Source: Bacteroidota bacterium
GTDB lineage: Bacteria; Bacteroidota; Bacteroidia; B-17B0; Aurantibacillaceae
NCBI GenBank assembly: GCA_021155905.1
Contig: JAJNBG010000034.1
Span: 1-64,000, forward strand
Direction: 5' to 3'
Length of the DNA: 64,000 nucleotides
Within the stretch, counting starts at the first letter, position 1; every line of letters starts with the position of its first letter. Shown piece after piece: positions 39,643 to 64,000 of this stretch. Under the pieces are notes generated by a model. The model worked only from the letters and a program-made list of their open reading frames with translations, made no database searches and had not been told where the DNA came from. The position numbers and the translations under genes were made by a program.

Positions 39643-40373
39643 AACTTAATAGCGCGCGAAGAGTTCACCAATAAACCAATGTCATGATTAATCATCCCGT
39701 ATTTAACTACTTCGGATAAAGAACCGCCCTGGGTGCCAACACCGGGCACGAGTAAAAAATGGTTAGGAACAATTTTACGGACATCTGCCAGCATCGCTGC
39801 TTTTGTAGCACCTACCACGTACATCATGTTTTCAGGAGTTCCCCAGGTGGCGGAAGTTTTTAAAACCTGTTCGTACCAAAGGCCGTCCTTGGCATCGGTC
39901 ATTTGAAAATCTTTGGAACCTTCGTTAGAGGTTAAGGCTAACACGATGGCCCACTTGCCATTAAATTCTAAAAACGGTTTTACGGAGTCACTGCCCATGT
40001 AAGGTGCAATGGTAATGGCATCTGCATGCAGGCGTTTGAAAAATGCTTTGGCATACATAGCCGATGTATTTCCGATGTCACCACGCTTGGCATCTGCAAT
40101 TAAAAAATGGTGTGGGTAATTCTGACGGATGTATTTAATGGTACGTTCAAGGCTGGTATAACCGCTTACGCCATAGGCTTCGTAAAAAGCAGTGTTCGGT
40201 TTAAAGGACACGCAGTATTCAGCCGTGGCATCAATGATCTGGCGGTTGAATTCAAAAATCGGATCATCTTCTTCCAATAAATGCTTTGGTAGCTTTTCCA
40301 CATCCGGATCCAATCCAACACATAAAAATGTTTTCTTGGCTCTGATCTCTTTGATTATTTCTGCTCGTGTCAT
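39612..40373 (-). CDS. pyrF: Orotidine 5'-phosphate decarboxylase with an altered C-terminus
   Basis: [44 protein letters not shown]; ends [17 protein letters not shown], the tail overlapping repeat sequence. Confidence 0.92.
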
Positions 40374-40477
40374 AGTTTTATTTTTAAAGTGGATTAAAGA
40401 TGAATGATACAGGATTAAAGATTATTTTTCGGATGTTCTATCTTTAATCTTTAATCTTTCATCTTTAATCAGTTCTC

Positions 40478-41548
40478 TTACAGTCCTCCTTCTTTCAACC
40501 TTTCTGCATTCTCCGCAAACTGTAGGGCATCAATCATTTGTTGAATATAGCCATTTGTAAAGTCAGTCAGGTTATATAAAGTCAATCCAATGCGGTGATC
40601 TGTGATTCGGTTCTGAGGATAGTTGTAGGTCCGGATCTTCTCCGAACGGTCACCTGTACTCACCATACTCTTACGTTTACCCGTAGTTTCTGCCAAACGT
40701 TTCTGAAACTCCAGATCATATAATTTAGAACGCAGCATCTCCATGGCTTTCTCACGGTTACCTAACTGGTTACGCTGTGTCTGGCAGGTTACCACAATAC
40801 CCGAAGGCTTATGGGTTAAAATTACTTTCGATTCTACTTTATTTACGTTCTGTCCACCGGCACCGCCACTTCGGGCAGTTGCCATTTCAATATCGGCCGG
40901 TTTAATTTCAATGTCCCATTCTTCGGCTTCAGGTAATACTACTACGGTTGCGGCTGATGTATGAACCCTTCCGGCTGCTTCTGTTGAAGGAACACGTTGT
41001 ACACGGTGTACACCACTTTCAAATTTCATCGTACCAAAGGCGTTATCACCTTTTACGTTAAATACAATTTCTTTATAACCACCCATCGAACCCGGACTTT
41101 CATCCACGACCTCTAACTGGAAACCTTTGATCTCGCAGTAACGGCGATACATTTCAAATAAGTCCCCTGCAAAAAGGGCCGCTTCATCACCTCCTGTTCC
41201 TCCGCGAATTTCCATCGTGCAGTTCTTGGCATCTTCCGGATCTTTAGGGATCAGTAACAAACGAACTTCCTCCTGCAATTTCTCTTCTGCCAAACGGTTT
41301 TCTTCCAGTTCGGCTTTCGCCATATCTAAAAACTCCTTGTCTTTTTCAGTAGCCAGTACTTCTTTGGCACCATTGATATTGTCTGTGATTTGCTTGTACT
41401 TGTAATAAGCCTCTACGATGGGTTGTAAACTCTTGTACTCTATATTCAGTTTTTTGAACAGACGCATATCGCCGATGACACTCGGATCCCCCAATTTCGC
41501 TTCCACATCATTGTACCGTCTCTTTATTTCTTCTAATTTCGCTAACAT
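40478..41548 (-). CDS. prfA: Peptide chain release factor 1
   Basis: [55 protein letters not shown]. Confidence 0.96.
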
Positions 41549-41737
41549 ACCTAATTTATCACTATAAGGGCGCTAAGATACTAAATCCATCGTGATTAGG
41601 AAAAATATGGAGCCTGATGTTGTAATTTTCAAAGATTGCGGAATCATTTTTATGCAATTCATTTCCCTTTCAATATTATTATTATAAATTTGGCGTAAAA
41701 TATTGAATTTTAAACATTTATCTTATTTAAGTAAATC

Positions 41738-43402
41738 ATGGCTTTAAAAACATTCAAGCAGGGAATTTTACCCCTGGTGATCGCGGCACTTACATTTAAC
41801 TCCTGTGTAAAGAAAAAAATGGACTTTGAAAATATGGCGGATCAGCAATGGACGCCTGAACTGGCTATTCCTTTAGTGAACAGTAATTTCACCATCAAAG
41901 ACATTTTACTGGAAACGGATAAGAACAACCAGATTGAAGTGGACGGAACCGGTTTTTGTACTTTGGTTTATAAAGGCAATTTGTTTTCTGTAAAAGGTAC
42001 CGACCTCATTCCTTTGACCGATAATAACGTTAACACCAGTTATAATTTAACGGCCGGTAATGTTTTAGCATTGAATGCATTGCCAACGGGCTCCACTTAT
42101 ACCATGAACTTCAGTAACCCGGTGACGTATGCGACAGGGAATTCTTCTATTCAGGTCGACGAGCTTACTTTGAAAACCTGTGATTTGAACATCGCGGTTA
42201 ATTCTACTTTCAGGCAAAGTTCTGTGCTGACGATTTCTATTCCGGACGCTAAAAAAGCCGGTGTACCATTTTCACAAACTATTGTGATTCCTGCATCCAC
42301 CGGTGGGAACATCAACGTGAACCAGTACGTGGATTTTGCAGGTTATGCGATTGACATGACCAATGGCGGAACCACCACTAATCAATTTACGGTGAACTAC
42401 AAAATCGTGGCTACGAAAACTGCCGCTGCATCAACCGTGGCTGAATCTTTCCAGATTTCCCAGGCATTTTCTAACCAGAGCTTTTTAACGGTTAAAGGAG
42501 ACGTGGGACAACAGTCCATCAGTGCAAACGTAGATACGGTAGCGATTTCTATTTTCAAAAATGCCGTACCAAGCGGTGGTGATTTCCGGATCAATTATGC
42601 TACCATTGATTTTACGATTGATAATTCATATGGTATTCCAATCCGTTTAAATAATATCCAGTTGTTCCCTTATGGTCCGGGACAGACTTTCCCTTATTCA
42701 TCTGTGCCTTTACCTCCGGCTTATACGAATTTAGATATCAACGCGCCGGTGGTTGTGGGAGCTCATGCTTTTACCTATCCTCCGCGAATTGGCGGACCTT
42801 CGTCCACACAGCTAAATGCTATCATCAATGCCAAGCCAAAGAATTTCATTTACAATGTAGGATCACAAACCAATCCTAACGGAGTGCCTTCTGCATCGCA
42901 GCGAAATTTCGTAACAGATCAGAGCCAGTTTAAAGTAGACATGGAACTGAGAATGCCGTTGGATGGTGGTGCCTGGGATTTTATTTTCAGGGATACCATT
43001 CCTTTTGATTTCGGTGAGCAAACTTCAGAAAATATCAATTCCATGTTATTCAGGGTTTACGCCAATAACGGCTTCCCGTTTGATGTATCTATGAACCTGG
43101 ATTTTGTAGATACCAATTATGTGGTGATGCAAACACTGGCTCCTGGTACTTTATATGCAGACGTGATCAAATCGGCACCGGTTGACGGCAATGGAATTGT
43201 GAACGGGAAAACAGAAAAAACCAATGATTTTACATTAACCAAAGCACAGATCGATAATTTAAAAACAGTGAAGCATATCATAGTGCGGGCCATTGGAGCA
43301 ACCAGTAACAATGGTGCTACTGATATTAAAATTTACGACCACTATAATTTAAATATCAGGATGGGCGTAAAAGGAGAATTTAATTTCCCATTGAATAAAT
43401 AA
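41738..43402 (+). CDS. Hypothetical secreted/lipoprotein
   Basis: Signal with ALTFNSCVKKK lipobox; long ORF adjacent to the OmpA gene. Confidence 0.7.
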   Translation: MALKTFKQGILPLVIAALTFNSCVKKKMDFENMADQQWTPELAIPLVNSNFTIKDILLETDKNNQIEVDGTGFCTLVYKGNLFSVKGTDLIPLTDNNVNTSYNLTAGNVLALNALPTGSTYTMNFSNPVTYATGNSSIQVDELTLKTCDLNIAVNSTFRQSSVLTISIPDAKKAGVPFSQTIVIPASTGGNINVNQYVDFAGYAIDMTNGGTTTNQFTVNYKIVATKTAAASTVAESFQISQAFSNQSFLTVKGDVGQQSISANVDTVAISIFKNAVPSGGDFRINYATIDFTIDNSYGIPIRLNNIQLFPYGPGQTFPYSSVPLPPAYTNLDINAPVVVGAHAFTYPPRIGGPSSTQLNAIINAKPKNFIYNVGSQTNPNGVPSASQRNFVTDQSQFKVDMELRMPLDGGAWDFIFRDTIPFDFGEQTSENINSMLFRVYANNGFPFDVSMNLDFVDTNYVVMQTLAPGTLYADVIKSAPVDGNGIVNGKTEKTNDFTLTKAQIDNLKTVKHIIVRAIGATSNNGATDIKIYDHYNLNIRMGVKGEFNFPLNK

Positions 43403-43435
43403 TTTTAAAAACACGACTTCATTATATCTCAGTTT

Positions 43436-45799
43436 ATGCAACTCAAAACCTATATAACAAGCTTATTATTTTTCTCCGTTCTGTCTTTGTCCGTTACTGC
43501 GCAGCAAAACTTAACGATGTACAACATCAGCTCCATTCAGCAAACGCAGGCGCATGTGAACCCGGCTTTTACTCCCGGCGCTAAAATAAATATTGCCATT
43601 GCGCCTTTGTTTCCGCCATTCCCGATTCCATCGGCCTATATCAATGTGAGCAACAGCGGTTTTAAAATGTCTGACCTCGTGAAACAGGACAGCGAAGGAA
43701 AAACCTATTATGATTTTGATAATATGATTTCCAAAACCAAAAAGAACAATTACCTGACTACGGCTTTGCATGTGGACCTGTTGACTTTTGGTTTCCGTTT
43801 TAAAAAGAAAAATTACCTGAGCTTTAATGTCTCTAATAAATTCGATTTCAGGTTCAGGTACCCGAAAGACTTTTTAAATGTGTTGATCAATGGTAACGGT
43901 GCAGACGCTACCCTTGGCCAGGAGCAAAAATTCAATTTCGGTGCGGACATGATGCACTATACAGACATCAGTGTTGGATTTAGCCGCGAAGTGATTGAAA
44001 AGAAATTAACCATTGGAGCCAAAGTGAAATACCTGATGGGTCAGGAAAACATCTACACCAAGAAATCGGATGTGTCTTTAACGACAGGTTCACAGAATTT
44101 TGACCTTACCGCTAAATCTGATATCGCAGTGTACACATCCGGACTGGATACGAATTCCCGTTCTCAACAGGATTTCAGCCCGATGCGTTATTTCTTCAAT
44201 ACCAAAAATTCAGGAGTGGGCATTGACTTAGGTGCCAATTACATTTTGAATGATAAATGGAGTGTATCTGCCTCTATGTTGGATCTGGGTTTCATTGAAT
44301 GGAAAGAAGCTACCAAAAATTATGTGAGTGCTAATCCGGGTTCTTCGGTAACCTTCACCGGTGTGAACTTAAAGGATTTCATCAACGATAGCACAACTAT
44401 CGAAGAGTCTTTCAGCAAAACGATTGACTCAATTGCCGAGCAGTTCAAGGTAGAAGAAAACATCAATACTTACCGCACCAACTTAAGCACGAAGATTTAC
44501 CTGGGTGGTAAATACCACATCAACGAAAAGAATTTTGCGGCTTTAGTATTATACGGACAGTTCTACGATAAAAAAATACATCCTGCTGCTTCCTTATCCT
44601 TCAACACAACCGTTGGCCGTTGGTTAAATGCTTCTATTTCTTATTCCATGTTAAACAGAAGTTATAACAATGTAGGATTAGGATTAGTGATCAACCCGGG
44701 TTGGTTCCAGTGGTATGTGATCAGTGATAACGTACTGGGCGTTTTGGTGATGGACAAATATAACAAGGCTTATGTACCGGCTTATACCAAAAACATTAAT
44801 GTGCGCGTGGGCTTTAACTTAAGCATCGGTAAAAAACCGAAGGATAAAGATAAAGACGGTGTAGCCGATAAAAAAGATGCATGTCCTGAAACCTTTGGTT
44901 TAGAAGCCTTACAGGGTTGCCCGGATAGAGACGGTGATGGTGTGAAAGATCTGGATGATAAATGTCCGGATACACCTGGCTTATCTAATTTAAGTGGATG
45001 CCCGGATAAAGATATGGATGGCATTATGGATTCAGAAGATGCCTGTCCGGATGAAAAAGGTTTACCAACGTTTAAAGGTTGCCCGGATAGAGACGGTGAT
45101 AACATCATGGACAAAGAAGATGATTGCCCGGATGAGGCAGGCTTAATTGATTTCAAAGGATGTGCAGACCGTGATGGTGACTTAACACCGGATAAGGAAG
45201 ATCCTTGCCCGGATGTAAAAGGGCCTAAGGAATTTAAAGGTTGCCCGGACAGAGATGGTGACAGCGTGATGGATAAAGACGATGGCTGTCCTGAAATTAT
45301 TGGTGCGGTAGAGAACAAAGGTTGTCCTTGGCCCGATACCGATGGAGATGGAGTAGTGGATAAGGATGATGATTGTCCTGCAGTACCGGGAGTAAAAGAA
45401 TTAAGAGGTTGTGTGCCTGCACCGGTATTGAAAGCTGAAGAGCAGAAGATCCTGGAGAAAGCATTCTCGAGTTTAGAGTTTGCAACCGGTAAAGACATCA
45501 TCAAACCGGTATCTTTCAAATCCTTGAACGACCTTGCGAAACTGATGAAAGAACATGAGAACGACTGGACACTGAAGTTATCAGGACATACCGATAACCA
45601 GGGTGACGCAGCGAAGAACATGCTCTTATCTGAGAAGCGTGTTAAAGCAGTGAAGAAATACTTAGTAAGCAAAGGAGCGAAAGCGGATAAGATCATTACA
45701 GAATGGTTTGGAGCTGATAAGCCAATTGCAGACAATGCCACTGAAGCAGGCCGCCAAAAGAACCGCCGTGTGGAAATGAAAGTAGAGTTTAAAAAATAA
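43436..45799 (+). CDS. OmpA family outer membrane protein with thrombospondin type 3 repeats
   Basis: Tandem DxDGDGVxDxxDxCPD repeats; C-terminal LSGHTDNQGDAAKNMLLSEKRVKAVKKYL OmpA motif. Confidence 0.92.
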   Translation: MQLKTYITSLLFFSVLSLSVTAQQNLTMYNISSIQQTQAHVNPAFTPGAKINIAIAPLFPPFPIPSAYINVSNSGFKMSDLVKQDSEGKTYYDFDNMISKTKKNNYLTTALHVDLLTFGFRFKKKNYLSFNVSNKFDFRFRYPKDFLNVLINGNGADATLGQEQKFNFGADMMHYTDISVGFSREVIEKKLTIGAKVKYLMGQENIYTKKSDVSLTTGSQNFDLTAKSDIAVYTSGLDTNSRSQQDFSPMRYFFNTKNSGVGIDLGANYILNDKWSVSASMLDLGFIEWKEATKNYVSANPGSSVTFTGVNLKDFINDSTTIEESFSKTIDSIAEQFKVEENINTYRTNLSTKIYLGGKYHINEKNFAALVLYGQFYDKKIHPAASLSFNTTVGRWLNASISYSMLNRSYNNVGLGLVINPGWFQWYVISDNVLGVLVMDKYNKAYVPAYTKNINVRVGFNLSIGKKPKDKDKDGVADKKDACPETFGLEALQGCPDRDGDGVKDLDDKCPDTPGLSNLSGCPDKDMDGIMDSEDACPDEKGLPTFKGCPDRDGDNIMDKEDDCPDEAGLIDFKGCADRDGDLTPDKEDPCPDVKGPKEFKGCPDRDGDSVMDKDDGCPEIIGAVENKGCPWPDTDGDGVVDKDDDCPAVPGVKELRGCVPAPVLKAEEQKILEKAFSSLEFATGKDIIKPVSFKSLNDLAKLMKEHENDWTLKLSGHTDNQGDAAKNMLLSEKRVKAVKKYLVSKGAKADKIITEWFGADKPIADNATEAGRQKNRRVEMKVEFKK

Positions 45800-45853
45800 A
45801 GTTAAACCGGAGGTTGAGGGTCTCGAAACCACCAGTTTAAATTGGATGAATTG

Positions 45854-45885
45854 AAAAGCCCCGCTGGAAACAGCGGGGCTTTTTT
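45854..45885 (+). terminator. Rho-independent terminator
   Basis: AAAAGCCCCGCTG-gaaa-CAGCGGGGCTTTTTT. Confidence 0.9.
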
Positions 45886-46054
45886 GTTGCTCTTCTAAAT
45901 AAAGAAAAATGTTACATTTGGTAAACTATTAATATTACAAAATACAATTCTGATATGGAAAAAATAAACCAAATAGGAATGAAAAAAAAAGAATTACATA
46001 CGTTAGTTATACCAATTCAAAGAATAAATACATTCAAAGCATAAAATTCAGACA

Positions 46055-47530
46055 ATGCGACCGAAAATACAATTTACAGAAGAAAATATCCGCAGACTAT
46101 TTGGATTTGAAGACGCTGAGGGAGAAGAGGTAGAGAGACTTAAGCAATACTATTTTAAGAATGATACCTTTGAACACGTATTGGCAGACTTACCAATACG
46201 CGTTTTAGTTGGTCACAAAGGCGTCGGAAAATCTGCATTGTTCCGAGTTGCAATGTCTGAACAACAAGAACGAGGCGATCTTACCATTTTGATTAAACCT
46301 GATGACGTAGCGGAAATTGGGGAAAAACATGAGAGTTTAGTGTTGAGTATTCCTAAATGGAAATTTGGGTTAACCGCGATAATTGCTGAAAAAGTACTTG
46401 CTCAATTTGGAATTAATGATGACTCAATTAAAGGAAAAATTATTCAAAGCGGAATGAAAGTTGTTTCGTTGGTCACAGACACGGTAACTCCGCTTCTTAA
46501 GGGCAAAGTAAAATTTAGTTCAAGTCAACTAAAGCTAATTGAACATTTCTTGAAAACTCAAAAAATCATTGTTTATATTGATGATTTGGATCGTGGATGG
46601 CAAAATAGAAAGGAAGGAGTAATAATGATTTCTTCTCTGTTAAATGCTGCTAGAGACCTGGCGTATCAAAATAAAGGTCTGGCCTTTAAGATATCTTTAA
46701 GATCAGATGTATATGCGGCAATCAGATTTGAAGATGAATCTTCCGACAAAATTTCCGGATCAGTAATTTGGCATTCTTATGAGTTACACGAAATATTTGT
46801 AATGCTGGTAATTCGTGTCCTTACATTTTTCAACGAATCGATAAATGAAGAAAACTTGAGAAAGTCAGGTCAAAGACATTTATCTTATTTTTTAGAATCA
46901 ATAATCGCAATAAATTTTGAGGGACGTGGTAATTGGGAAAAGGCGCCTATTCATCAGGTGATTCTATCCTTGATTAGAAAGAGGCCAAGAGATATCGTAA
47001 AACTATGCTCATTAGCGGCAAGAAAAGCTTATTCTGATAGGTCGGCAATCATCACCACCAAACACTGGGAGTTAATATTTGAACAATATTCACAAGGAGT
47101 TATTCATGACACAATTGTCGAATTTAAATCAGAATTACTAGAAATTGAAAGGTTACTTTTTGGTATGAAACCGGAAAAGAAAAATACAAAAGCTGCCGAT
47201 GCTTTTGTATTTACGAGCGCTGAGCTAAGACTGAAACTGAATAAAATTATTGAACGTGGTACTTTTAAATTTGCAAACGGAAGGATTGCTACAGCTTCAG
47301 ATCTCGCACAATTTTTATACAAAATAAATTTCTTAACTGCTAGAAAGACCTTGGAGAACGGAACTATTCAGAGAAAATATTTTGAAGAAAACAATTACTT
47401 ATCATCAACCTTTGTCGATTTTGGATATGATTGGGAAGTTCATCTCGCATATCGATGGGCATTACAACCTGATACATTAGAAAACATTCTTGCCAAACTA
47501 GTCCGCTCCAAAGATGAATTGCAGATATAG
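46055..47530 (+). CDS. P-loop ATPase, resembling the Sll1717 family
   Basis: FGFEDAEGEEVERLKQYYFKND; Walker A VGHKGVGKSALF; Walker B-like IIVYIDDLDRGW. Confidence 0.75.
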   Translation: MRPKIQFTEENIRRLFGFEDAEGEEVERLKQYYFKNDTFEHVLADLPIRVLVGHKGVGKSALFRVAMSEQQERGDLTILIKPDDVAEIGEKHESLVLSIPKWKFGLTAIIAEKVLAQFGINDDSIKGKIIQSGMKVVSLVTDTVTPLLKGKVKFSSSQLKLIEHFLKTQKIIVYIDDLDRGWQNRKEGVIMISSLLNAARDLAYQNKGLAFKISLRSDVYAAIRFEDESSDKISGSVIWHSYELHEIFVMLVIRVLTFFNESINEENLRKSGQRHLSYFLESIIAINFEGRGNWEKAPIHQVILSLIRKRPRDIVKLCSLAARKAYSDRSAIITTKHWELIFEQYSQGVIHDTIVEFKSELLEIERLLFGMKPEKKNTKAADAFVFTSAELRLKLNKIIERGTFKFANGRIATASDLAQFLYKINFLTARKTLENGTIQRKYFEENNYLSSTFVDFGYDWEVHLAYRWALQPDTLENILAKLVRSKDELQI

Positions 47531-47643: not shown

Positions 47644-48600
47644 ATGGACAAAGAAGATGACACAATACTTGGATATATAAAATATGAGGGAGGCCTTGTA
47701 AGCGATGGTTATTTAGATGCCCGCAAATCTGGAGAAACATTGTTAGGTATTGATGAAGTTCTTAGGTATTTTATTTACCAAGAAAACCCTCAAATACAAG
47801 GTTTTGAATTTGAGATTCCCGTGCGTATTCGAAAAGGAAGTTGGATAACAACTTTTCCTGAGAATCCTGAAAAATGGGCTGCAGGCGCATTTACCCTTTG
47901 GATGGCCGGTAAATATGCAGGAAGTGCATTAGAAGAAATTGCAAAAAATGATTTCAAAAATGTCAGCCTGAAAGAAGTTTTTAAAAAAGCATTTATAGGC
48001 GCTATTAGCGTTATAAAAGTTGCAAAACATTTTGGTTCTATTTCAAAAAAGAAATTCGATAAAATTGAATTTGACGAAAACAACGAACTAATTAAGATTA
48101 TTAACGATGATGGGGAAGAATTATGGATACCACCTGAAATGTTAGAGTTGTATTCAAATTGTCCCCAGTCTATTTTTAATAAAATGACAAAGTTAATAGA
48201 AGAAGAGCGGGAACTTGTCGTTGGGTTGCATGATGAAAATGTAATTATAGAAGAAAAAATTACGGTAAAAAATAAATATATATTTACAAAACCTGATGAA
48301 GAGGATGAAATTATTCTCCCTGAATTGAAACATGGTGAGTATATTGAAATACAAGGTCATGTAACAAGAGGTAATGAAAAAGCAAATACAATAGGTTTTT
48401 TGTACTCAGATCATATAATAACTTGTTATCCACAAATAGGCAATATTAAAGAAAACAAAAACAATTTATTTAATAATTGTTTACTTAAAGGTTACGTTAA
48501 CAGAGAAGACAAAAATGGCAAGCTCATAGAGAAGCGTCCAAGAATTGCATTTGTGGAAATTATCAATCTGGACAAACCAGGGAAATCTCTTTTTGATTAG
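47644..48600 (+). CDS. Conserved hypothetical protein
   Basis: Long ORF co-oriented with the ATPase gene. Confidence 0.65.
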   Translation: MDKEDDTILGYIKYEGGLVSDGYLDARKSGETLLGIDEVLRYFIYQENPQIQGFEFEIPVRIRKGSWITTFPENPEKWAAGAFTLWMAGKYAGSALEEIAKNDFKNVSLKEVFKKAFIGAISVIKVAKHFGSISKKKFDKIEFDENNELIKIINDDGEELWIPPEMLELYSNCPQSIFNKMTKLIEEERELVVGLHDENVIIEEKITVKNKYIFTKPDEEDEIILPELKHGEYIEIQGHVTRGNEKANTIGFLYSDHIITCYPQIGNIKENKNNLFNNCLLKGYVNREDKNGKLIEKRPRIAFVEIINLDKPGKSLFD

Positions 48601-48635
48601 CTATCCAATTTTCATTGAACGCCAAAATTATTAAA

Positions 48636-49289
48636 ATGAGCATGTTAAATAATTATCTTCCACAAATACTAATCTTCGCTGGTGTAATGTTGACCTTTTT
48701 AGGAGGGTTGATAAGTTTTACTCGAGATGCAGAAACGCAAAAAGAAAACAAGACACTCGTGATAGAAAATAAGAGGCTATTAGAAAGTAATTTAAGTTTG
48801 TCAGAATTAATTAAAAATAATTTGACTGGTGGTGATTCTTACGGCGTTGTTTCACCCTTAGCAATTTTAGATAACAACAAAGAAGTTTATTTTTTATATT
48901 TTGAAAATAAAGGAGACTTTCCGTTGTATGACGTAATAATTAAATACTGGAACCCTGATGTAATTAAAGGTAAAGCTGACCCTGATGGAAAAGCCTCTAC
49001 AGAAGTGCTTAAATATTATAAAACGGTAAACTGTGGCAATATACCCCCTAAGGGAGGCCAAGCACTTGGATCTACGTTTGATCTTAGTGATGGGGAGTTC
49101 GTAAAGTTTAACATCAGTATCAATGCAAAGAATGGTTCGTTTTCTCAATTGCTTAGAGTGACAAAAAAAGATGGTAAGTTGAGCATTGCAAAAAGAATAA
49201 ATACTATTGGGGAAGGTTCCAGAATTATTTTGGAAGAAGTTGGTTTGGATTTTCCAAAAGATGCAAATGGGCAGCTCGATTGGAAGTAG
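48636..49289 (+). CDS. Hypothetical membrane-anchored protein
   Basis: N-terminal TM helix (QILIFAGVMLTFLGGLISF) then soluble domain. Confidence 0.6.
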   Translation: MSMLNNYLPQILIFAGVMLTFLGGLISFTRDAETQKENKTLVIENKRLLESNLSLSELIKNNLTGGDSYGVVSPLAILDNNKEVYFLYFENKGDFPLYDVIIKYWNPDVIKGKADPDGKASTEVLKYYKTVNCGNIPPKGGQALGSTFDLSDGEFVKFNISINAKNGSFSQLLRVTKKDGKLSIAKRINTIGEGSRIILEEVGLDFPKDANGQLDWK

Positions 49290-49420
49290 ATGAATCCCAG
49301 TTGGTTAAAAAGCAGTTAGCTTTTTATTGAGCTTTTCAGTAGGCAAAGTTTCAAACCTCAAACTGAAATTTAGCCCCCAAAACGTTATGTGTAATTTACT
49401 TGACCCCAAAATAGGATTTA

Positions 49421-50449
49421 GTGTTTGATAAAGAAAAATATAAAAAAACTGCACTTAACATTCTTTCCCCGATAAAGACTGCTGATATAGAATCGTGGAA
49501 AAAACAAAAAGTTATTTTTAAATCTGAAAAAAGTTTGTTAAGCTTCAAACTGCCAGAATATTATTTGGTCTATTTTTTATTCGCAGAATTATTAGATTTT
49601 CATAACCTTGGCCAATTTGAAAAAGTTGCATGGTCATTTCCTATTGACTACAAAGGAAAAGCATTCATTATAGAATATAGAAAATTTGGTATGACTCTTC
49701 TTGTTCAAGACTTAGACAATATAGAACAAGAAGCAGAGGAACTTACTAAAAAATTAAACGGTGCTGTTACAAGTGCTAGGCCATTTTACGATTATCTTGC
49801 TGAACAAGCAGTTAAAAGTTCTCAATTTAATGTGACTAATAGAAATTCAGAGCTGTTTGGACGATTCAATTTTTTACTGTCGCTTTATAAAAAAGAGTAT
49901 AATAAGTATATTAAAAATAAAGGTAAAATTGAGAAGAAGACAAAAATGACAAAAATAGGTGAAGTGACTTCTTTTATACGCCCAGAATACAAATATCAAG
50001 AAAAAGCGAATTGGATAGCTATTTCGTGTATTGAGGCTTTTTATAGTTGGACAGAACATCTATTTATACATCTGGCAATTGTTGCTCAGAACTTATCTGA
50101 TGGAGTGCAGGTTTCAAAACTAATCGAAGCAGAATGGAAAACTAAATTTAAGGCTGCTGTACCCTATGAATCAGAAGAAGCAAATCGATTTTATGTTGAT
50201 TTACTGATTATAAGACAACAACTTCGAAACTTTGTTGCGCATGGATCATTTGGAAAGGATGGTAATGCATTTAAATTTCATTCAAATACAGGAACTATTC
50301 CTGTAATAATGAGCCATAATAGAAATAAAAATAGGTTTTCGCTTCATGGCGGGTTGACTTTTAAAGAAGATAATGTAATCAAGTTAATTGAAGATTTTAT
50401 TAAATTTCTTTGGAGTAGTCCTCTACTATCCGCTCCGCTGCATTTGTAA
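49421..50449 (+). CDS. Hypothetical protein with HEPN-like Rx4H motif
   Basis: LLIIRQQLRNFVAHGSFGKDG contains RNFVAH; GTG start. Confidence 0.6.
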   Translation: MFDKEKYKKTALNILSPIKTADIESWKKQKVIFKSEKSLLSFKLPEYYLVYFLFAELLDFHNLGQFEKVAWSFPIDYKGKAFIIEYRKFGMTLLVQDLDNIEQEAEELTKKLNGAVTSARPFYDYLAEQAVKSSQFNVTNRNSELFGRFNFLLSLYKKEYNKYIKNKGKIEKKTKMTKIGEVTSFIRPEYKYQEKANWIAISCIEAFYSWTEHLFIHLAIVAQNLSDGVQVSKLIEAEWKTKFKAAVPYESEEANRFYVDLLIIRQQLRNFVAHGSFGKDGNAFKFHSNTGTIPVIMSHNRNKNRFSLHGGLTFKEDNVIKLIEDFIKFLWSSPLLSAPLHL

Positions 50450-50494
50450 TGCCGCGGAAATTTACCGTGATAAATTTCACTGACTTAAAAATGG

Positions 50495-50812
50495 TTGACG
50501 AAAATATTTACCTTTACAAAAATGCAGGAAATATTATTTTATACCTTTTTGGCCATCTACATTGTATTCTCTTTGATTCAATCGACTGAATTTTACAGAG
50601 AGGATGTCTTTTATTCCGGGAAAATTAAATTAGTTCACCTGTTACTAATTTGGCTGATTCCTTTTGTGTATGCCATTCTTCTTTCATCGTTGAGGCAAAA
50701 AACAAAAGGTTCTTTTGATCCTGATAAAAAACCAAAAAGCCTGGGACAGATTGCGGGAAATCGTCGCCACATTTCTAGTGGTGGTTTTAACAATTTCGGT
50801 GATTTACAATAA
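50495..50812 (+). CDS. Small two-TM hypothetical protein
   Basis: Hydrophobic helices and a soluble polar tail. Confidence 0.5.
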   Translation: MTKIFTFTKMQEILFYTFLAIYIVFSLIQSTEFYREDVFYSGKIKLVHLLLIWLIPFVYAILLSSLRQKTKGSFDPDKKPKSLGQIAGNRRHISSGGFNNFGDLQ

Positions 50813-50843
50813 AAAAAATGTAGAAATCAATATAATACAATAT

Positions 50844-51275
50844 ATGTGGCTCAAAGACCAACTAAATAAATATTGCCACGCCCGATTTCCTATTTTTAAG
50901 GTATTAGCGTTGATTGTCTTTACGCAGATCATTGTTTTTTGTGGGGATCCGCATTCCATTTTGATTTATTCAGTTATAAATGACTCAGCTGATACTTTGT
51001 ACATTGAAAAGCCATGTTGCGATGACTCAGAGGAGCCAATAGTGGTAATTGATCAGACAAATTATTATAAAATAGCACCGAACTCCGGGATCCAATATTT
51101 CGAGGATGATAAAGTTGGCTGGCCTGGAGAAAAGGAACTAAATAACCGAAATCTGAATGATAAATTAAAACTCATTAAAGGTAAAGATACCCTTGATTTT
51201 GTGTTTGCTCTAAAAGGCAAATGCGATATTGATATTAATGGACAGATTGGACGCTATACACGTACCATTGAATAA
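50844..51275 (+). CDS. Hypothetical protein
   Basis: ORF from the internal Met (MWLKDQLNKYCHARF), N-terminal TM helix; avoids overlap with the previous ORF. Confidence 0.5.
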   Translation: MWLKDQLNKYCHARFPIFKVLALIVFTQIIVFCGDPHSILIYSVINDSADTLYIEKPCCDDSEEPIVVIDQTNYYKIAPNSGIQYFEDDKVGWPGEKELNNRNLNDKLKLIKGKDTLDFVFALKGKCDIDINGQIGRYTRTIE

Positions 51276-51304: not shown

Positions 51305-51329
51305 GTTGTCGCGGACATGTTGTCCGTGA
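51305..51329. repeat. Direct repeat copy 1, containing inverted repeat CGGACA-TGT-TGTCCG
   Basis: GTTGTCGCGGACATGTTGTCCGTGA; second copy at 52343-52366. Confidence 0.75.
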
Positions 51330-51360
51330 AGCATCTTTCAGCCACCTATAATATATCTTC

Positions 51361-51778
51361 AAGCACCCATCAAGGACTCTTCAAACACCCCTCAAGCACT
51401 CTTCAACCACTCATCAAGTACCCTTCAGGTACCCATCATGCACCCTTCAACCACCTGTAGGGTACTTGACAAGCACCCATCAAGTACTCTTCAAGCACCT
51501 GTAGGGTACTTGACAACCACCCATCAAGCACCCTACAACCACCTGTAGGGTACTTGATAACCACCCATCAAGCACTCTTCAACCACCTGTAGGGTACTTG
51601 ACGACCACCCATCAAGTACTCTTCAAGCACCTGTAGAGTACTCTTCAACCCCCTGTAGAGTAGTCATCAAGCACCTGTAGAGTACTCTTCAACCACCTTT
51701 AGAGTACTCTTCAATCACCTGTAGAGTAGTCATCAAGCACCTGTAGGGTACTCTTCAATTACCTATAGGGCCCTTTTC
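51361..51778. repeat. Tandem array of 38 degenerate 11-bp units
   Basis: Parsed by hand with no phase slip: aagcacccatc|aaggactcttc|aaacacccctc|…|aagcacctgta|gagtactcttc|…|aattacctata|gggcccttttc (38 x 11 = 418 bp). Confidence 0.95.
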
Positions 51779-51800: not shown

Positions 51801-51808
51801 TATCTTTG
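51801..51808 (+). promoter_or_regulatory. TAnnTTTG -7 element
   Basis: TATCTTTG 28 bp upstream of the ATG at 51836; no clear TTG at -33. Confidence 0.45.
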
Positions 51809-51835: not shown

Positions 51836-52321
51836 ATGTTCAGACTTTTAGTTTTTATGTGCATGTTCCCTGTGTTTGGATCCGCACAGGCTACTGTTGC
51901 CCTATCGGAGGAGGAGCAAACCAAAGTGTTCTGCCAGGCCATTGCCGAATACATAAAGGCCGTGTACAAAAACGACCAAAAGACTTATGATACGTTATTT
52001 ATAGGCCAATATGAGGATCATCATAACAAAAAATTACCGGCCACGATCCAGAACACGAAGATCGTTCTTCTGAAGAATGAAGAGGAGGGGGCTGAAAAAT
52101 TGAAGTACCGGAAGTCTTTTGGCTTTGTGAACATCGCAGAATTTAAACCCACGAAAGACGGAGCGGAGTATATCTTTGTTACTTTCCTGGTGGAAAAAAC
52201 CAATGGTAATGTCAGCTGGATGCCGAAACATAATTGTTTCGTCCGTTTTAATTATGATGCTAAATTGAAGGGGTTTAAATTGGACAAGGTGAAGTTTGAA
52301 TATCAGTATTCTAAAAAATAA
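51836..52321 (+). CDS. Hypothetical secreted protein
   Basis: Signal peptide MFRLLVFMCMFPVFGSAQA; complete ORF. Confidence 0.7.
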   Translation: MFRLLVFMCMFPVFGSAQATVALSEEEQTKVFCQAIAEYIKAVYKNDQKTYDTLFIGQYEDHHNKKLPATIQNTKIVLLKNEEEGAEKLKYRKSFGFVNIAEFKPTKDGAEYIFVTFLVEKTNGNVSWMPKHNCFVRFNYDAKLKGFKLDKVKFEYQYSKK

Positions 52322-52342: not shown

Positions 52343-52366
52343 GTTGTCGCAATATGTTGTCCGTGA
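52343..52366. repeat. Direct repeat copy 2
   Basis: GTTGTCGCAATATGTTGTCCGTGA; see 51305-51329. Confidence 0.75.
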
Positions 52367-55638: not shown

Positions 55639-55708
55639 AGTATATTATTGAACCAGGGTAGAAGTTTCAGTTTGAACCTATATGAGATTTATTCTGATAC
55701 TTTTGCGA

Positions 55709-55726
55709 TCCCGATAGCTATCGGGA
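55709..55726. repeat. 18-bp perfect palindrome TCCCGATAGCTATCGGGA (copy 1 of 4)
   Basis: Exact; other copies at 56101-56118, 57888-57905 and 57976-57993. Confidence 0.95.
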
Positions 55727-56100
55727 GTATCCAAAACCCTTTACCTTACTTTTTTCATTGCTAAAAAAGTAAGCAAAAAAGCTAGTCAAAACGATAGCCC
55801 CGCGCTCTTTTGATTTTTAAGTTTCGCTACCCAAAAGAGAACTAAAGCTCTTTTGGGCTCAACTAAAAAAATCAAAATTCACAGCTCATCCGCCGCCGCG
55901 TTTTGACAGGCCCGCGCGCTTTCCAGTCGAAATTTACATGAGAGATGTGCTGTAAAACTCCGATTGGATAGCGCTAGCACCTCGCTCATACGTTGGTAAT
56001 AGTGCGGCTGGTTTTGGCAATTCGGTGTGAACCGCCATTTTTTTACTCCGTTTCCTGGGCCGCCTTGCGCGTAAAAAATGGTGGTTGGCGAATTGCCTTG

Positions 56101-56118
56101 TCCCGATAGCTATCGGGA
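56101..56118. repeat. 18-bp perfect palindrome TCCCGATAGCTATCGGGA (copy 2 of 4)
   Basis: Exact sequence match. Confidence 0.95.
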
Positions 56119-56272
56119 TTGTTTCTTTTTCATCAAGGAAAAAGAAAAGTAGAATATACGCCGTAGGCAAGCAATTTAAGTCACGGACTACAAGTCTGCG
56201 AGAACGGCTGGCATAGGGTATCTGTGTATGTGATTGCTTCGTCGTTGGGAAAACTCCTCGCAATGACGAAAT

Positions 56273-57730: not shown

Positions 57731-57887
57731 GTAAGGATCGTTTTAATTTGTAATACCAGAGGTTATAAATTACTTTAAAAATAATGCCTTGCATGCATTA
57801 CACACTTATATGATCTTTATAAAAGCTTTTAAAAAATCATATATTCTTACCATTATTCAAAAGGTATTTTTTACGATACTTTTGCGA

Positions 57888-57905
57888 TCCCGATAGCTAT
57901 CGGGA
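57888..57905. repeat. 18-bp perfect palindrome TCCCGATAGCTATCGGGA (copy 3 of 4)
   Basis: Exact sequence match. Confidence 0.95.
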
Positions 57906-57975
57906 GTATCCAAAAGCGTTTTTTATTGTTCTTTTTTCTTGATGAAAAAGAACCAAAAAATCAAGAACGAACGCC

Positions 57976-57993
57976 TCCCGATAGCTATCGGGA
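57976..57993. repeat. 18-bp perfect palindrome TCCCGATAGCTATCGGGA (copy 4 of 4)
   Basis: Exact sequence match. Confidence 0.95.
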
Positions 57994-58427
57994 CCAATCT
58001 TTTTAGGGGCGCACAGCGCAGGGACCCCTAAAAAATTGGCGGCGCACTTTCTGGCTCTTCGCTAAAAATGTTTGCCAAACATTTTCTTAACGCTCAGCCC
58101 TACACCGTTCGTCCACGTCCACGCGCCATTCCAGTTGATGTTTTATATTGGTTTTCAATACACATGGCTCTAAATGGAATATCCAATCGGAGTTTTATAG
58201 CACATCTCTATCTCACAATAGAATGACGAACATCAGGTGTGGGACTATGATTTTGTGCAGCAATAGCTGTAAAAGCAACGAAGGGTCGGCACGCGCAAGC
58301 GGGTTGCTTTTATCAGCGATTTTGGATAGAGCGATAGCGGCATCCAAAAAATGCCTATCACAAAATCATAAGCTTTTTTGGATACTTTTTGGCTGCAAAA
58401 AGTATCAAGAAAATAATAAGAAATAAA

Positions 58428-59213
58428 TTAGAATTTAAGTACAAAGTGCTCTTTGTTCTTCTGTTCGGATCGGAAGAACACAATCCCAAAATAAAATAAA
58501 TCCAGACTGAGTGTCACATCGGGATGCGCGCAGATCTCCTTCCATGCCTTTAGCATGCCGGCACTCCAGTAAATATCATCAAACACAAAAATGGAATCGG
58601 CAGTTTTTTTCTCCAGCGCCATGTTGAAATAACGTATGGTTGGTTCATAGGCATGGTTGCCGTCGATGTATAAAAGATCCAGGTGATCAATGCTTTTCAA
58701 AAGATGCGGAAAAGCCGTATCAAAATTTCCGGTGATGTTCTGAATGTTTCGTGCGTGATGTTCGATAAATAATTTTTGAGAGAACTCCACCAAATCAGGA
58801 CAACCTTCAATACTGTATATATCGGAGCGGGGAGAAGCTTTGGAAAGATACAAGGTGGTTAAGCCAATAGAAGTTCCCAGTTCAACGACCGTAGTCGGTG
58901 CAAATTTATTCAACAGACGGTACATAAATTCCGCCTGTTTCTTTTGTGCAATGCCGTGTTTCGCAATTTGATTGACGAAGCGTTTATCAGATTGTAATTT
59001 TTTAGAGCCTGCGCCAAGGTCAACGATGTGAATCGCCGTCGTATTTTTTTCCAGGGATTGTCTGACTGCCTGCAATTCTTCAAAGTCTCCAAACGGAAAT
59101 TCATTCTTAATCAGCTCCATGTAAAAATTATACAGGAAAGGGGAGTGCAGATCGTGCTCCGTATAGGCAGTGAGCCGGTAATTGATATATTTAAAAAGGC
59201 GTTTCAGTTCCAT
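58428..59213 (-). CDS. Class I SAM-dependent methyltransferase
   Basis: TTVVELGTSIGLTTLYLSKASPRSDIYSIEGCPDLVEFS; LLYIDGNHAYEPTIRYF. Confidence 0.88.
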   Translation of the reverse strand: MELKRLFKYINYRLTAYTEHDLHSPFLYNFYMELIKNEFPFGDFEELQAVRQSLEKNTTAIHIVDLGAGSKKLQSDKRFVNQIAKHGIAQKKQAEFMYRLLNKFAPTTVVELGTSIGLTTLYLSKASPRSDIYSIEGCPDLVEFSQKLFIEHHARNIQNITGNFDTAFPHLLKSIDHLDLLYIDGNHAYEPTIRYFNMALEKKTADSIFVFDDIYWSAGMLKAWKEICAHPDVTLSLDLFYFGIVFFRSEQKNKEHFVLKF

Positions 59214-59343
59214 GATAATTTAATCACATAGTTACATAGTTTTTCTGAATGATAAAAGTAATGCATAGGGAGAGCTTCGCTCTTACAAATAGGAATAATG
59301 AGTTTATATTCTTTGCTTATCAATACTCTATGTGTCTGTGTAT

Positions 59344-60741
59344 TCAATGATTCTCTTCGCAATAGCACAACGTTGTTTTCACAGTTGGTTTTACTTTATA
59401 ATCGGGTAAAGTCGTTTCTTTCATAAAAAAAATGGCCAGATCTGAAATTGGATTATCAGGGTGTTCTTTGTTCCATTTCTTCAGCAGATATTTGCAGTAG
59501 AAGGGCCGCATGTAGTTGTTATTATTAAAGGTATAGTTTTCATGGAACTTTCGCCAGCGATCGCTTTCAAATTCGGTAATGCCTGTCTCCGGTTTTTGAA
59601 AGGAAACCGGGTTGGTGTTATGCTTAATGTCGATATACTGATGTTGTTTGTTTAAGCCACTGTACACAAACCATCCATCATCTTTTAAAATGCTGGGAGA
59701 AAACATGCCCCAGTTCTGTTCGAGCCGTAATACTTTACCATAAGCGATCACCGTTGGATCGAGGGCGTAAGGAAATTTTTTGATACTTCCCAAATTCATC
59801 ATCAGGCAGAAAATAATAACGGCTATCACGAAATAGTTTTTGATGGTCTCCGCTACTTTAATAACAGGCGGCTTTTCCAGGCTTTCAAAAGAAGCATCAT
59901 ACAGCGTCCTGTTTTTATAAAAATGTTTTTCAAACCAATCAATCACGGAAGACGGTAGCAAGCCAATAAGCCCAACCAGGCCGATGATATAAAACAAGCC
60001 AACATAGAGTGTACTGCCTATCCCGATAAACAAACACGCGTATGCAATCAACCCAGCGGATCGAACTTTTGTTGGGACAAAAGGCAGGAGCAATAAAACA
60101 GGCGCGAGTAGTTCAATGTAAAAAACGGCAAAGGTCAGTGCTTTTAACAGGGTAGGAAACTGGTACAGAAAACTTCCAAATGGCAAGCGGATTTGGTCGA
60201 GGCTCAATGCATAATACAGGGCCGTTCCTTCGCTTCTCCATTCCGGTGACGTTTTTAGCATGGCCGAAAAAAAGAAAATGGAACACATCAACAGCAAGTA
60301 TCCGAAGCCCGCCCAGGACACATAGCGGTTAGGGTAGACGGATTTTTTTTGAATGGAATAGTGTTCGCCCCATGGTAAAAACAGTGCCCAAAATAAAAGC
60401 AATCGTAATAAATCGTCACCTCCCTGGAGAATAAAAGGGTTACGGTTTTGCAATGACGTTAAAAATACCCAGCAGATAAACGTCATCAGTCGTGTCCTGA
60501 AGCCAATAATCAACAGCACCAGACAAAAGACATTCAATATAAACAAAACAACCTGCCACCACAGTTCGCCATGCATGGCATGAAAGGAAAAATAAACAGG
60601 ACTCCAGTTATATTGCTTCAGCGTTTCAAGGGGCAATACCCCTTCATCGGTAAAGAAGGCCCGTATGGATAAGGAGCGCACAAACAGGTCCACCAGTAAA
60701 ATGATACCTGTCCCGATACGCATCAGGGAAAGCGCCCTCAC
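59344..60741 (-). CDS. HTTM domain membrane protein (vitamin K-dependent gamma-carboxylase-like)
   Basis: Multi-TM; LMRIGTGIILLVDLFVRSLSIRAFFTDEGVLP; GGDDLLRLLLFWALFLPWGEHYS; GTG start. Confidence 0.85.
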   Translation of the reverse strand: MRALSLMRIGTGIILLVDLFVRSLSIRAFFTDEGVLPLETLKQYNWSPVYFSFHAMHGELWWQVVLFILNVFCLVLLIIGFRTRLMTFICWVFLTSLQNRNPFILQGGDDLLRLLLFWALFLPWGEHYSIQKKSVYPNRYVSWAGFGYLLLMCSIFFFSAMLKTSPEWRSEGTALYYALSLDQIRLPFGSFLYQFPTLLKALTFAVFYIELLAPVLLLLPFVPTKVRSAGLIAYACLFIGIGSTLYVGLFYIIGLVGLIGLLPSSVIDWFEKHFYKNRTLYDASFESLEKPPVIKVAETIKNYFVIAVIIFCLMMNLGSIKKFPYALDPTVIAYGKVLRLEQNWGMFSPSILKDDGWFVYSGLNKQHQYIDIKHNTNPVSFQKPETGITEFESDRWRKFHENYTFNNNNYMRPFYCKYLLKKWNKEHPDNPISDLAIFFMKETTLPDYKVKPTVKTTLCYCEENH

Positions 60742-60803
60742 ATCCAGGGTGTAAGATTGCTTTAATCGCGCGATTATGTGAGTCAGTGTTTCCGTAAAAT
60801 AAA

Positions 60804-60828
60804 AAGGCTCTACAATTTGTAGAGCCTT
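60804..60828 (-). terminator. Rho-independent terminator-like hairpin
   Basis: AAGGCTCTACAATTTGTAGAGCCTT downstream of 60848-61423. Confidence 0.7.
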
Positions 60829-60847
60829 AATTTAATATTCTTTATGT

Positions 60848-61423
60848 TTATAAGCAACCAACCTGTCCTGAAACCGTTACCGAGTAAAATGCCCCGGGTG
60901 TTTTGTAGCAGGCAATGTTTGAGAATGTTGCTTTAATATCTGTGGCAGGAGCAGGGCTAACTGTTACATTCACCGTTCCGGCTGAAGAGTACCATGTACT
61001 TCCTTCATCCTGGCTAGGAGGATTAGTTACCGTCATAATTGCTTTACCTGTTGTTAAAGGTGTGTTTTGGTTCACAAGCGCATAGGTTCCTGTAGTAATG
61101 GTTCCAGAGAAACATACAGAAATAGTTGTGCTGGTGCTTGTATTAATATTCGTTAAGCAGGTTTGTCCCGCCTGGCAACCATAACTTGTCCATGCTGCAC
61201 CAATTCCCACGCTGCTCATACTTGAGTTTTGCTGAGTAGAAGTTGTCGCAATGGTACCGGTTGTAGTTACATTGGTAATGTTTGGATTATTACCTGTACC
61301 CGTTTGCGCTTCATCCTTATAAGTTGGAGTGATGGCATCATCATCATTTTTTGATTTACAGGAAATAAAAACGATGCTTCCGATAAATAAAATGCTGAAT
61401 GCTGATAAAATGATTTTTTTCAT
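60848..61423 (-). CDS. Hypothetical lipoprotein
   Basis: SIVFISCKSK lipobox; Thr/Ser-rich ORF. Confidence 0.7.
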   Translation of the reverse strand: MKKIILSAFSILFIGSIVFISCKSKNDDDAITPTYKDEAQTGTGNNPNITNVTTTGTIATTSTQQNSSMSSVGIGAAWTSYGCQAGQTCLTNINTSTSTTISVCFSGTITTGTYALVNQNTPLTTGKAIMTVTNPPSQDEGSTWYSSAGTVNVTVSPAPATDIKATFSNIACYKTPGAFYSVTVSGQVGCL

Positions 61424-61507
61424 TTTTATAAATTTTGATATTCAAATCTATAGATTATAATTCTATTTTCCAAACAGTTACACTCAGTGGTTTAACACAT
61501 TGGCTGG

Positions 61508-62677
61508 TTAATAAAAGCGTTTGCCATGTTTCACCATGTCTTTTAACAAAACACATGCCCTGTAACGGTCTTCTTCGTAACGCGCGTACAGTGCATTCAT
61601 TGCAGCCAGTACCTTATCCGGCCCGATTTCATCAGCCCATTGCAGCAAGCCTTTTGGATAATTGACACCTTTAGTCATGGCAAGGTCAATATCTGTAATA
61701 GATGCAATACCTAAATAATTGGTGTCACAGGCTTCATTTACGAGCATACATAGGATGCGACTCACGATTTCCCGCCCCAGCGCTTCATCTTTTTTTGGCT
61801 CAGGTACTGTGACCCCTTCCCGGTAGTCATAGAAGCCACGTCCTGATTTTTTTCCGAGAAATTTTGCTTCCAGTAAACGTTTTTGTGTCAGCGATGGTTT
61901 AAAACGAGGATCATAATAAAATTGCTGCCATACGGTTTCGGTTACTACGTAATTCACATCATGTCCTATAAGGTCCATTAACTCAAAAGGACCCATTTTA
62001 AATCCACCAATCTCGCGCATGGCCCAATCGATGGTTGCCATGTCGGCTAATTGTTCATCATATATGCGTAAAGCTTCGCTGTAAAAAGGCCGGGCCACAC
62101 GATTCACAATAAATCCCGGTGTATCTTTTGCCATCACCGTTACCTTACCCCAGCTGTTAATCAAGGCCTGACATTGATGAGCAATGTTCGGATCAGTTGC
62201 AACACCAGGAATAATTTCCACTAAAGGCATCAGTGTAGCCGGGTTAAAAAAATGTATACCGACTACTTTTTCAGGTTTCTGGCAGGCAGACGCGATTGAA
62301 GTAATGGATAGGGAAGACGTATTGGAAGCTAACACGCAGGTTTCGGAAGTAATGCTTTCCAGTTCCTTAAATACACTTTGTTTGACCTCACTTTTTTCTA
62401 CAATCGCCTCAATGATCAGGTCACAGGATTTAAAATCGCCGATGTTTCCTGTATAGCTTGTTAAGCTTAAAATGGATTGCGCTTTCTCCGCGGTAATTTT
62501 TTGTTTTTCAACCAGCTTGTTTAAAGAGCTTTGTAAATTGCTTTTGGCTTTCTCCAGAGCGGCTTCGTTTGTATCGTAAACAATAGTTTTGTGTCCTGCG
62601 GTGGAAGCCACCTGAGCAATACCGCTTCCCATGGCTCCTGAACCTACTACGCCAATAATTGAATCTTTTGTGAACAT
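61508..62677 (-). CDS. 3-hydroxyacyl-CoA (3-hydroxybutyryl-CoA) dehydrogenase
   Basis: IGVVGSGAMGSGIAQVASTAGHKTIVYD; HFFNPATLMPLVEIIPG; DTPGFIVNRVARPFYSEAL; two C-terminal HCDH-like domains. Confidence 0.93.
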   Translation of the reverse strand: MFTKDSIIGVVGSGAMGSGIAQVASTAGHKTIVYDTNEAALEKAKSNLQSSLNKLVEKQKITAEKAQSILSLTSYTGNIGDFKSCDLIIEAIVEKSEVKQSVFKELESITSETCVLASNTSSLSITSIASACQKPEKVVGIHFFNPATLMPLVEIIPGVATDPNIAHQCQALINSWGKVTVMAKDTPGFIVNRVARPFYSEALRIYDEQLADMATIDWAMREIGGFKMGPFELMDLIGHDVNYVVTETVWQQFYYDPRFKPSLTQKRLLEAKFLGKKSGRGFYDYREGVTVPEPKKDEALGREIVSRILCMLVNEACDTNYLGIASITDIDLAMTKGVNYPKGLLQWADEIGPDKVLAAMNALYARYEEDRYRACVLLKDMVKHGKRFY

Positions 62678-62695
62678 ATAAATTTTTAGTCTCTG

Positions 62696-64000
62696 TTATT
62701 TTTGAATGATTATTTTTTTTGTTTCATGCAGGTTGTCTCCTTTGATCGTTACAAAATAACAACCATCGCTTAAACCGTTGGTATTAATGTTTGCCTTATA
62801 CAATAACCGGTCGATGTGCCATGTGTCTGAAACAACGGTTTTACCCAACACATCGGTAATGCTGAATTGTAGATTGGCATTGTTGTGATTGGCAATGATG
62901 CAATTCAGTTCGTGAGAGGCCGGGTTTGGAAATACTGAGAATACGCTGGAGATCGCAGAGGCCTCTGTTTCTTTAACCCCTGTCGTGCTTTCATAGGTAT
63001 TGTTTCCTTTCAGAATAAAAATCCCGTTCTGCATGTCAGTGGCAATAATAATTTTACTTGGCAGATATGGATAGGCACCCCAGTTCCCACGGTAAGCGTT
63101 GGTACTGAAATTATCATTCACGCCATACAACGGGCTGGTGTCGAAGTAACCATATATGGTCGTATTGGATGGATTCGAAATATTATACAAATAGAGCCCG
63201 TCCTGGTAAGTACTCATCCAGCACCAGTTGTTGCCGATGATGTAAGGATTATGAGGAGTTGCCAACGGATGTGAATTGATAGTATCCAACACTGATATAT
63301 TATAAATATCGGTCACGTCGATTACCTTCGCGGGCTTACTGGCAGGAACTTCATCGGCAAACACAATGGTTTTACGATCGTCGGTTTGCCAGGAGCTGTG
63401 GTTATAACCACTGTAGGGATATCCGGTAAAAGATTGCATCAGTGAAAATGTGTTGGCTGCCGTTAATTTTAAAATATGAAAACCTTTGTAGCCACAGGAG
63501 GCAAAGACCGTATCGTTTCTCACAAACATATCATGCACGACATCAATGATGGTTGTGCTCACATCCTGCTCCAGGCTTCTTACTAAAACCGGCACTGAAG
63601 GGGTGGCCAGACTATACACGCGCATGGTAGAATAACCTCCACCCATGGCTGCTGAATTTTTGACGGAACCACAATAGAGTTTATCCTGATCAACAAAAAT
63701 GGTATGACAAAATTCAAAAAGGGCGTTGCTGTCATATACCACATGAACGGAATCAGGAAGGTATTGCATATCCACAATTTGCAGGCTGTTAGGCTGGCAC
63801 TGATCACTTACCATGTAACAATAATTCTGATAGGTTTTTATTTCCCTCCAGGTGCAACCGGTATGTTTGGCTCTCACAGAATCTAAAATGACAGGGTTTG
63901 TGGGATTGCTCACATCTATAAAATAGGTTTGCTTACTGGTTCCAACAATAGCGTATTCTTTATTTTTTGTGGACTGGTACCATCCCCAGCATCCCGAATA
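62696..64000 (-). CDS. Choice-of-anchor B family protein with T9SS sorting domain; continues past the window end
   Basis: Frame stays open upstream of the listed Met (…YSGCWGWYQSTKNKEYAIVGTSKQTYFIDVSNP…); C-terminal SVFPNPASHELN…ETKKIIIQK. Confidence 0.82.
   Translation of the reverse strand, partial: YSGCWGWYQSTKNKEYAIVGTSKQTYFIDVSNPTNPVILDSVRAKHTGCTWREIKTYQNYCYMVSDQCQPNSLQIVDMQYLPDSVHVVYDSNALFEFCHTIFVDQDKLYCGSVKNSAAMGGGYSTMRVYSLATPSVPVLVRSLEQDVSTTIIDVVHDMFVRNDTVFASCGYKGFHILKLTAANTFSLMQSFTGYPYSGYNHSSWQTDDRKTIVFADEVPASKPAKVIDVTDIYNISVLDTINSHPLATPHNPYIIGNNWCWMSTYQDGLYLYNISNPSNTTIYGYFDTSPLYGVNDNFSTNAYRGNWGAYPYLPSKIIIATDMQNGIFILKGNNTYESTTGVKETEASAISSVFSVFPNPASHELNCIIANHNNANLQFSITDVLGKTVVSDTWHIDRLLYKANINTNGLSDGCYFVTIKGDNLHETKKIIIQK

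Follow-up and report, generated by a model that had tools for sequence, protein, structure and literature searches.

What would have to be recognised in a piece of non-coding DNA that keeps its spacing without a single insertion or deletion while its bases drift? This question is raised by positions 51361-51778 of the window, i.e. the whole stretch of 64,000 nucleotides from a Bacteroidota genome that was analysed here.

Organization of the window array

The array (51361-51778, no strand assigned) is 418 bp long and, read in 11-bp steps, was composed of 38 units, all in phase, with CAAGYACYCWT as canonical form. The initial annotation had described this strict phasing without indels, and the observation held: cyclic alignment counted 76 mismatches and 0 indels, where about 15 indels were expected, and Tandem Repeats Finder reported a period of 44 bp with 87% matches and 0% indels over positions 51431-51728. 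Self-identity peaked solely at multiples of 11, the strongest peaks being those at 22, 44, 66 and 88. Yet the 11-bp element, first taken for the repeat itself, stood only as a half-unit. Since identity rose from 0.48 at lag 11 to 0.69 at lag 22 and 0.82 at lag 44, the true repeat is one of 22/44 bp built from 11-bp half-units. A 19-base pattern spanning two units (up to 2 mismatches) gave 16 matches, every one of them inside the array; the expectation from shuffles was 0.16.

As already noticed in that annotation, units occur in both orientations. AGGGTACTTGA is the reverse complement of TCAAGTACCCT, and inverted units were found in register at four positions, the first at 51459-51469 (minus strand) and the others at 51503-51513, 51547-51557 and 51591-51601. 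The central GTAC, which forms the dyad, therefore holds its position within the 11-bp frame.

No entry of the ORF list crosses the array and stops were present in all six frames. These stops, together with a period (11/22 bp) that is not a multiple of 3, led to the rejection of a decayed coding repeat, which had been raised at the outset as a finding that would overturn the initial reading. Directly downstream of the array lies TATCTTTG (51801-51808, plus strand), which matches the -7 box of Bacteroidota promoters (consensus TAnnTTTG); this match is weak on its own because about 80 TAnnTTTG matches occur on both strands of the window.

A second array and its linked gene family

A genome-wide search with the window's unit uncovered one further array in the same genome (C27:109406-109697). 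Both arrays are 76% identical, within the array only: they have the unit in common but not the flanks. Among relatives of this genome, BLAST of the window array against 59 others, plasmids and phages returned only short marginal matches. Unit patterns gave nothing in 19 species of the same genus and a single match, of 2.3 copies, among 396 genomes of the phylum. A side observation concerned the 11-mer ATCAAGTACCC, short tandem copies of which occurred in unrelated phages and in bacteria of several phyla (L034-L053; e.g. L045:1231-1290, L053:1371-1397 and L034:5036-5060). Some of these copies lay in linkers (SSTHQVPIKYP) of Fic and wHTH-like proteins, others immediately ahead of start codons; the pattern matched nine viral contigs, and reversed or permuted control patterns matched none.

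The C27 array is located about 400 bp upstream of a gene coding for a 232-aa protein (L009:6105-6803). The family of this protein had no match in Pfam, NCBIfam or PHROG, no credible match in PDB and no relatives in the viral-contig search, and the protein displayed no recognisable DNA-binding domain. Read by eye, its sequence suggests that the N-terminal half is helical and the C-terminal half FN3-like. The class to which both arrays belong was visible only through periodicity and the neighbouring gene combined.

Period of the arrays across Bacteroidota

Nearly all homologues of the 232-aa protein in other species and genera were preceded by a non-coding array. Such arrayed homologues were found both in the same genus and beyond it, namely in further genera of the family and in a pair of more distant genomes. 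Their arrays comprised about 10-25 degenerate units, which differed from one example to the next (GGTAGGTAGGCATCTTACCTCA in G007, units centred on TTGCACCGGTGCAA in G458, CACTAGCAATGGTTCCTAGTA in G075). The period was scored automatically over 13-30 bp in the regions upstream of these homologues, two of which were left out because their position at contig edges provided too little upstream sequence. The best period was 21 bp in 13 and 22 bp in 9 of 23 loci, and again 21 bp in the two loci of the more distant outgroups. Altogether, 24 of the 25 tested loci displayed 21 or 22 bp, the exception being L145 (G031:C17), where nine copies of AAGTCA followed a strict 43-bp period from -595 to -251 before the gene.

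In 846 kb of the window's own genome, period-22 arrays were found only in the window and at three copies of the 232-aa gene (C27, C19 and C6), other repeats being almost exclusively multiples of 3. Likewise, 800 kb of G007 contained no unlinked 21/22-bp array. The spacing had initially been described as close to one helical turn; this has to be corrected to two turns (21 or 22 bp), the 11-bp half-period being displayed by the window array and its C27 partner only.

Dyad symmetry and RNA folding

Over the set of arrays, dyad symmetry of the units exceeded that of column shuffles (combined p 2e-25), although at 22 bp it was not significant for the window array alone (p 0.06) nor for C27 (p 0.45). 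A structured transcript had been put forward early on; the array would then be transcribed and its units would pair into long hairpins. Very stable folds were indeed obtained for the window array (z from -8 to -15.5, with -10.8 and -15.5 for the minus strand) and for the minus strand of C27 (z -9.8). This stability is explained by the self-complementary GTAC units and was absent from sister arrays, where z was near 0 (-0.6/-0.7 for L074 and -1.3/0.0 for L084). Arm swaps over the array set revealed no systematic compensatory changes between unit arms, and an Rfam search with the window array returned only sub-threshold chance matches to miRNAs. A structured transcript thus fits the window array alone and not the class; we consider it very improbable, and a structured RNA family or a general RNA structure was rejected. 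Taken together, missing arm compensation and unshared stability indicate that a DNA platform fits better than RNA.

Conservation of the period and turnover of the units

Indels and mismatches were counted at 20:3580 in the arrays, and the intergenic parts of collinear flanks had 159 substitutions with 31 gap openings. Relative to mismatches, indels were therefore about 35 times rarer in arrays than in intergenic DNA, bearing in mind that the intergenic reference is small and drawn from local alignments and that indels cannot be counted reliably in the weakest arrays. This depletion and the 21- or 22-bp period of 24 of 25 homologous loci, whose units are mostly unrelated, strongly support the early proposal of a constrained spacing with a drifting sequence.

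The choice between both periods followed the phylogeny of the linked protein. All 22-bp loci formed one clade of the protein tree (support 95/93), which corresponds to 1 change of period against 7.6 in shuffles (0/500 as low). For this analysis L145 was coded as 21 bp despite its 43-bp period, which does not affect the 22-bp clade.

No such constancy was observed for the units. Loci L075 and L082, both from G003, encode proteins that are 96% identical and have flanks that are 80-85% identical; both arrays kept 21 bp, yet their unit similarity was at the null level. The same lack of relationship was found between the units of L071 and L072 (proteins 71% identical). Within an array, units diverged by 17-50% from their own consensus, while higher-order repeats of 42/44 bp revealed homogenisation within loci. 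From these comparisons, it would seem that cells read spacing rather than sequence.

Inheritance could produce part of this pattern. The arrays might be non-functional satellites: an ancient tandem repeat in linkage with the gene would be passed on with it, homogenised by unequal exchange and constant in period by mere inertia, with the window copy as a stray. The higher-order repeats, the common unit of the window and C27 arrays without common flanks, and the agreement of the period with the protein tree, as expected of linked inheritance, all speak in its favour. Such an origin is harder to reconcile with the approximately 35-fold depletion of indels, with dyad symmetry at most loci and with the fact that complete turnover of the units left no period other than 21, 22 and 43 bp in 25 loci. 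We regard it as unlikely, though it is to be kept in mind since the constancy of the period could partly reflect an ancestral array.

The relaxed relationship between unit and protein also bears on a sequence-specific system of the iteron type, in which a cognate protein would bind the units, co-evolve with them and autoregulate its own gene. Plasmid iterons and their Rep proteins are the known system closest in layout and in dependence on helical phase. Iterons are direct repeats, in about 2-7 copies at replication origins, bound sequence-specifically, cooperatively and with dependence on helical phase by winged-helix Rep proteins (PMC4980987). The arrays resemble them by direct repeats of about 20 bp (17-22 bp in iterons) upstream of one linked gene, by a putative dependence on helical phase and by a locus-specific sequence. 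Moreover, unit similarity and protein identity were weakly correlated (Spearman 0.33, p 0.001), L072, L079 and L080 having a common unit. In contrast to iterons, the arrays comprise some 10-25 degenerate units, the linked genes encode no winged-helix Rep initiator nor any Rep family match, and units turn over without a matching change of the protein. Their setting is probably chromosomal, since the loci lie among genes that are collinear between species. Divergence of the units from their own consensus and the unrelated units of L071/L072 make sequence-specific binding quite improbable, and its strict form, with co-evolution of unit and protein, was contradicted by the L075/L082 pair.

Possible promoter elements near the arrays

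Within the window's genus, 12 of 15 loci displayed a sigma-54-type -24/-12 element (TTGGCAC-N5-TTGGA type) between array and gene, compared with a background rate of 0.0017 per 700 nt, and rpoN is present. The element was found neither at the window array nor in the other genera examined. Pairs of CCACTTA close to it were 21 bp apart in 8 of the 8 loci having two, even where the array has a 22-bp period. Arrays and upstream CCACTTA sites are therefore probably read separately. The arrangement is reminiscent of sigma-54 upstream activating sequences, but array units are not CCACTTA, 22-bp arrays coexist with the 21-bp spacing of these sites and other genera lack the element.

The window locus and its neighbourhood

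The window array is surrounded by two conserved flanks. The left one (39648-45888) is collinear with G007:C21 (82% DNA identity), where defence-like genes come next, followed by a 22-bp array with a different unit and by a 232-aa gene. The right flank (58441-64000) is collinear with G009:C15 (75-76%), where the opposite side of the common segment carries a 232-aa gene together with a 22-bp array. Collinearity of both flanks with array loci of other genomes thus delimits a variable slot, 12.5 kb in size, around the window array. Copies of a dispersed repeat of about 100-240 bp (70-97% identical) were recorded several times in the window and around G007:C21; those of the window (38820-39643, 32819-33247, 55687-56176 and 57866-58434) occur near the edges of the slot.

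Variable cargo upstream of the array starts with a gene coding for a P-loop ATPase (46055-47530, plus strand). It displayed a weak match to PADLOC PDC-M28C (3.9e-5) and a match to the phage protein family phrog_22717 (4e-24), and a homologue, 72% identical, adjoins a 21-bp array in another genus (L204). It is possibly a new defence gene. The remaining cargo (47644-51275, plus strand) consists of ORFs of 318, 224, 342 and 186 aa with no family matches. The first gene past the array, a 161-aa ORF (51836-52321, plus strand), was rejected as a general partner of the arrays, having homologues in three genomes of the same genus without arrays. TTGTCGCGGACATGTTGTCCGTGA and variants of it, possibly a terminator-like intergenic repeat, were observed beside the array (51308-51333), past the 161-aa gene (52345-52365) and before the G007 array (upstream of L072).

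Although its period of 22 bp, its lack of indels and its non-coding status are those of the class, the window array is not followed by a 232-aa gene, and neither gene nor remnant had a credible match within the window (best tblastn E 0.09). It is best classified, from these sequence features, as an orphan rather than a complete member, the counterpart slot of the sister species having retained the gene. Its units were similar to those of C27 (0.93) but not to those of its positional counterpart in G007 (0.24, the null level), which makes copying or replacement within its own genome the probable origin of the window array. With the 232-aa gene absent, a function of this particular copy is the least certain.

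Defence genes were encountered in about half of the array neighbourhoods, an association that we consider as a lead, based on raw counts among array loci. Neighbours included PDC-M11A, mREase_IV with a NUDIX gene, HsdR with Septu PtuA/PtuB, PDC-S06, an HNH nuclease, a CRISPR array, a type IIG R-M enzyme and Vsr with a methylase (MTase). The CRISPR-like array (repeat of about 47 bp, spacers of about 30 bp) directly adjoins a 232-aa array locus (upstream of L084; L151:900-1300, G007:C31). Arrays might accordingly mark the insertion sites of defence cargo, with a recombinase or the pairing of one array with another as the means; cargo was indeed located between conserved flank and array in the comparisons of the window with G007:C21 and of C19 with G007:C22. 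Yet an unsystematic look noticed no integrase or transposase beside the arrays, neighbours were housekeeping-like at many loci (e.g. G003, G458:C13 and C7), and insertion does not need a strict period. Capture as the role of the arrays appears improbable to us.

Relationship to other repeat classes

Other repeat classes share single features with the arrays. Dispersed palindromic repeats (BIME/REP) are likewise palindromic and intergenic, but they are scattered copies of one sequence, whereas the present arrays are single and tandem, fixed in period and individual in sequence. CRISPR and other interspersed-repeat arrays have a strict period and lie beside defence genes at some loci; the window array, however, does not display a constant repeat with unique spacers in its unit table, and the genuine CRISPR array next to the G007:C31 array is separate from it. 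Bacterial minisatellites (VNTRs) also expand locally as tandem repeats, whereas here the period, not the sequence, is conserved across genera and linked to one gene family. The open-access literature, to which our search was mainly devoted with few subscription journals covered, contained no earlier description of phased or palindromic tandem arrays in Bacteroidota; 'new' means here that none was found in it.

A possible role for the arrays

Our best guess is still the one suggested at first, a phased protein-binding array acting in cis, which at this stage is a candidate designated from sequence comparisons. More precisely, the window array may represent a platform, encoded by spacing and close to a promoter, for the repeated assembly of protein, a reading to which we would give nearly even chances. 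In this scheme, units of two turns (21 or 22 bp), usually dyad-symmetric, would be placed upstream of a promoter, and a protein would probably assemble repeatedly on them, each unit taking up one protomer or dimer. Selection would act on the geometry of the assembly, contacts with the sequence being loose, so that mutation and local amplification could renew the units without hindrance. The platform would normally belong to the 232-aa gene family, the window copy being an orphan. An effect on transcription may follow from such binding, and the 232-aa protein or a partner would be a plausible reader. One argument against this assembly platform is that 22 bp are not exactly two turns of relaxed B-DNA, so that 19 units would drift by almost two turns; the lack of a recognisable DNA-binding domain in the 232-aa protein is another.

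A more specific version, conceivable but more tentative, would have the protein of this undescribed family, or its partner, polymerise on the arrays with a clade-specific pitch of 21 or 22 bp upstream of its own gene, often in slots of defence genes, the information residing in the spacing and the unit sequence being free.

Non-coding DNA is normally recognised by its conserved sequence. Here, most loci cannot be aligned, and yet a difference of one base in the period (21 versus 22) was kept and tracks the phylogeny of the linked protein. Should this be confirmed, such arrays would carry regulatory or architectural information that is invisible to ordinary motif and homology searches. They would also offer a handle on the multi-copy 232-aa family and may mark slots in which defence genes are collected.
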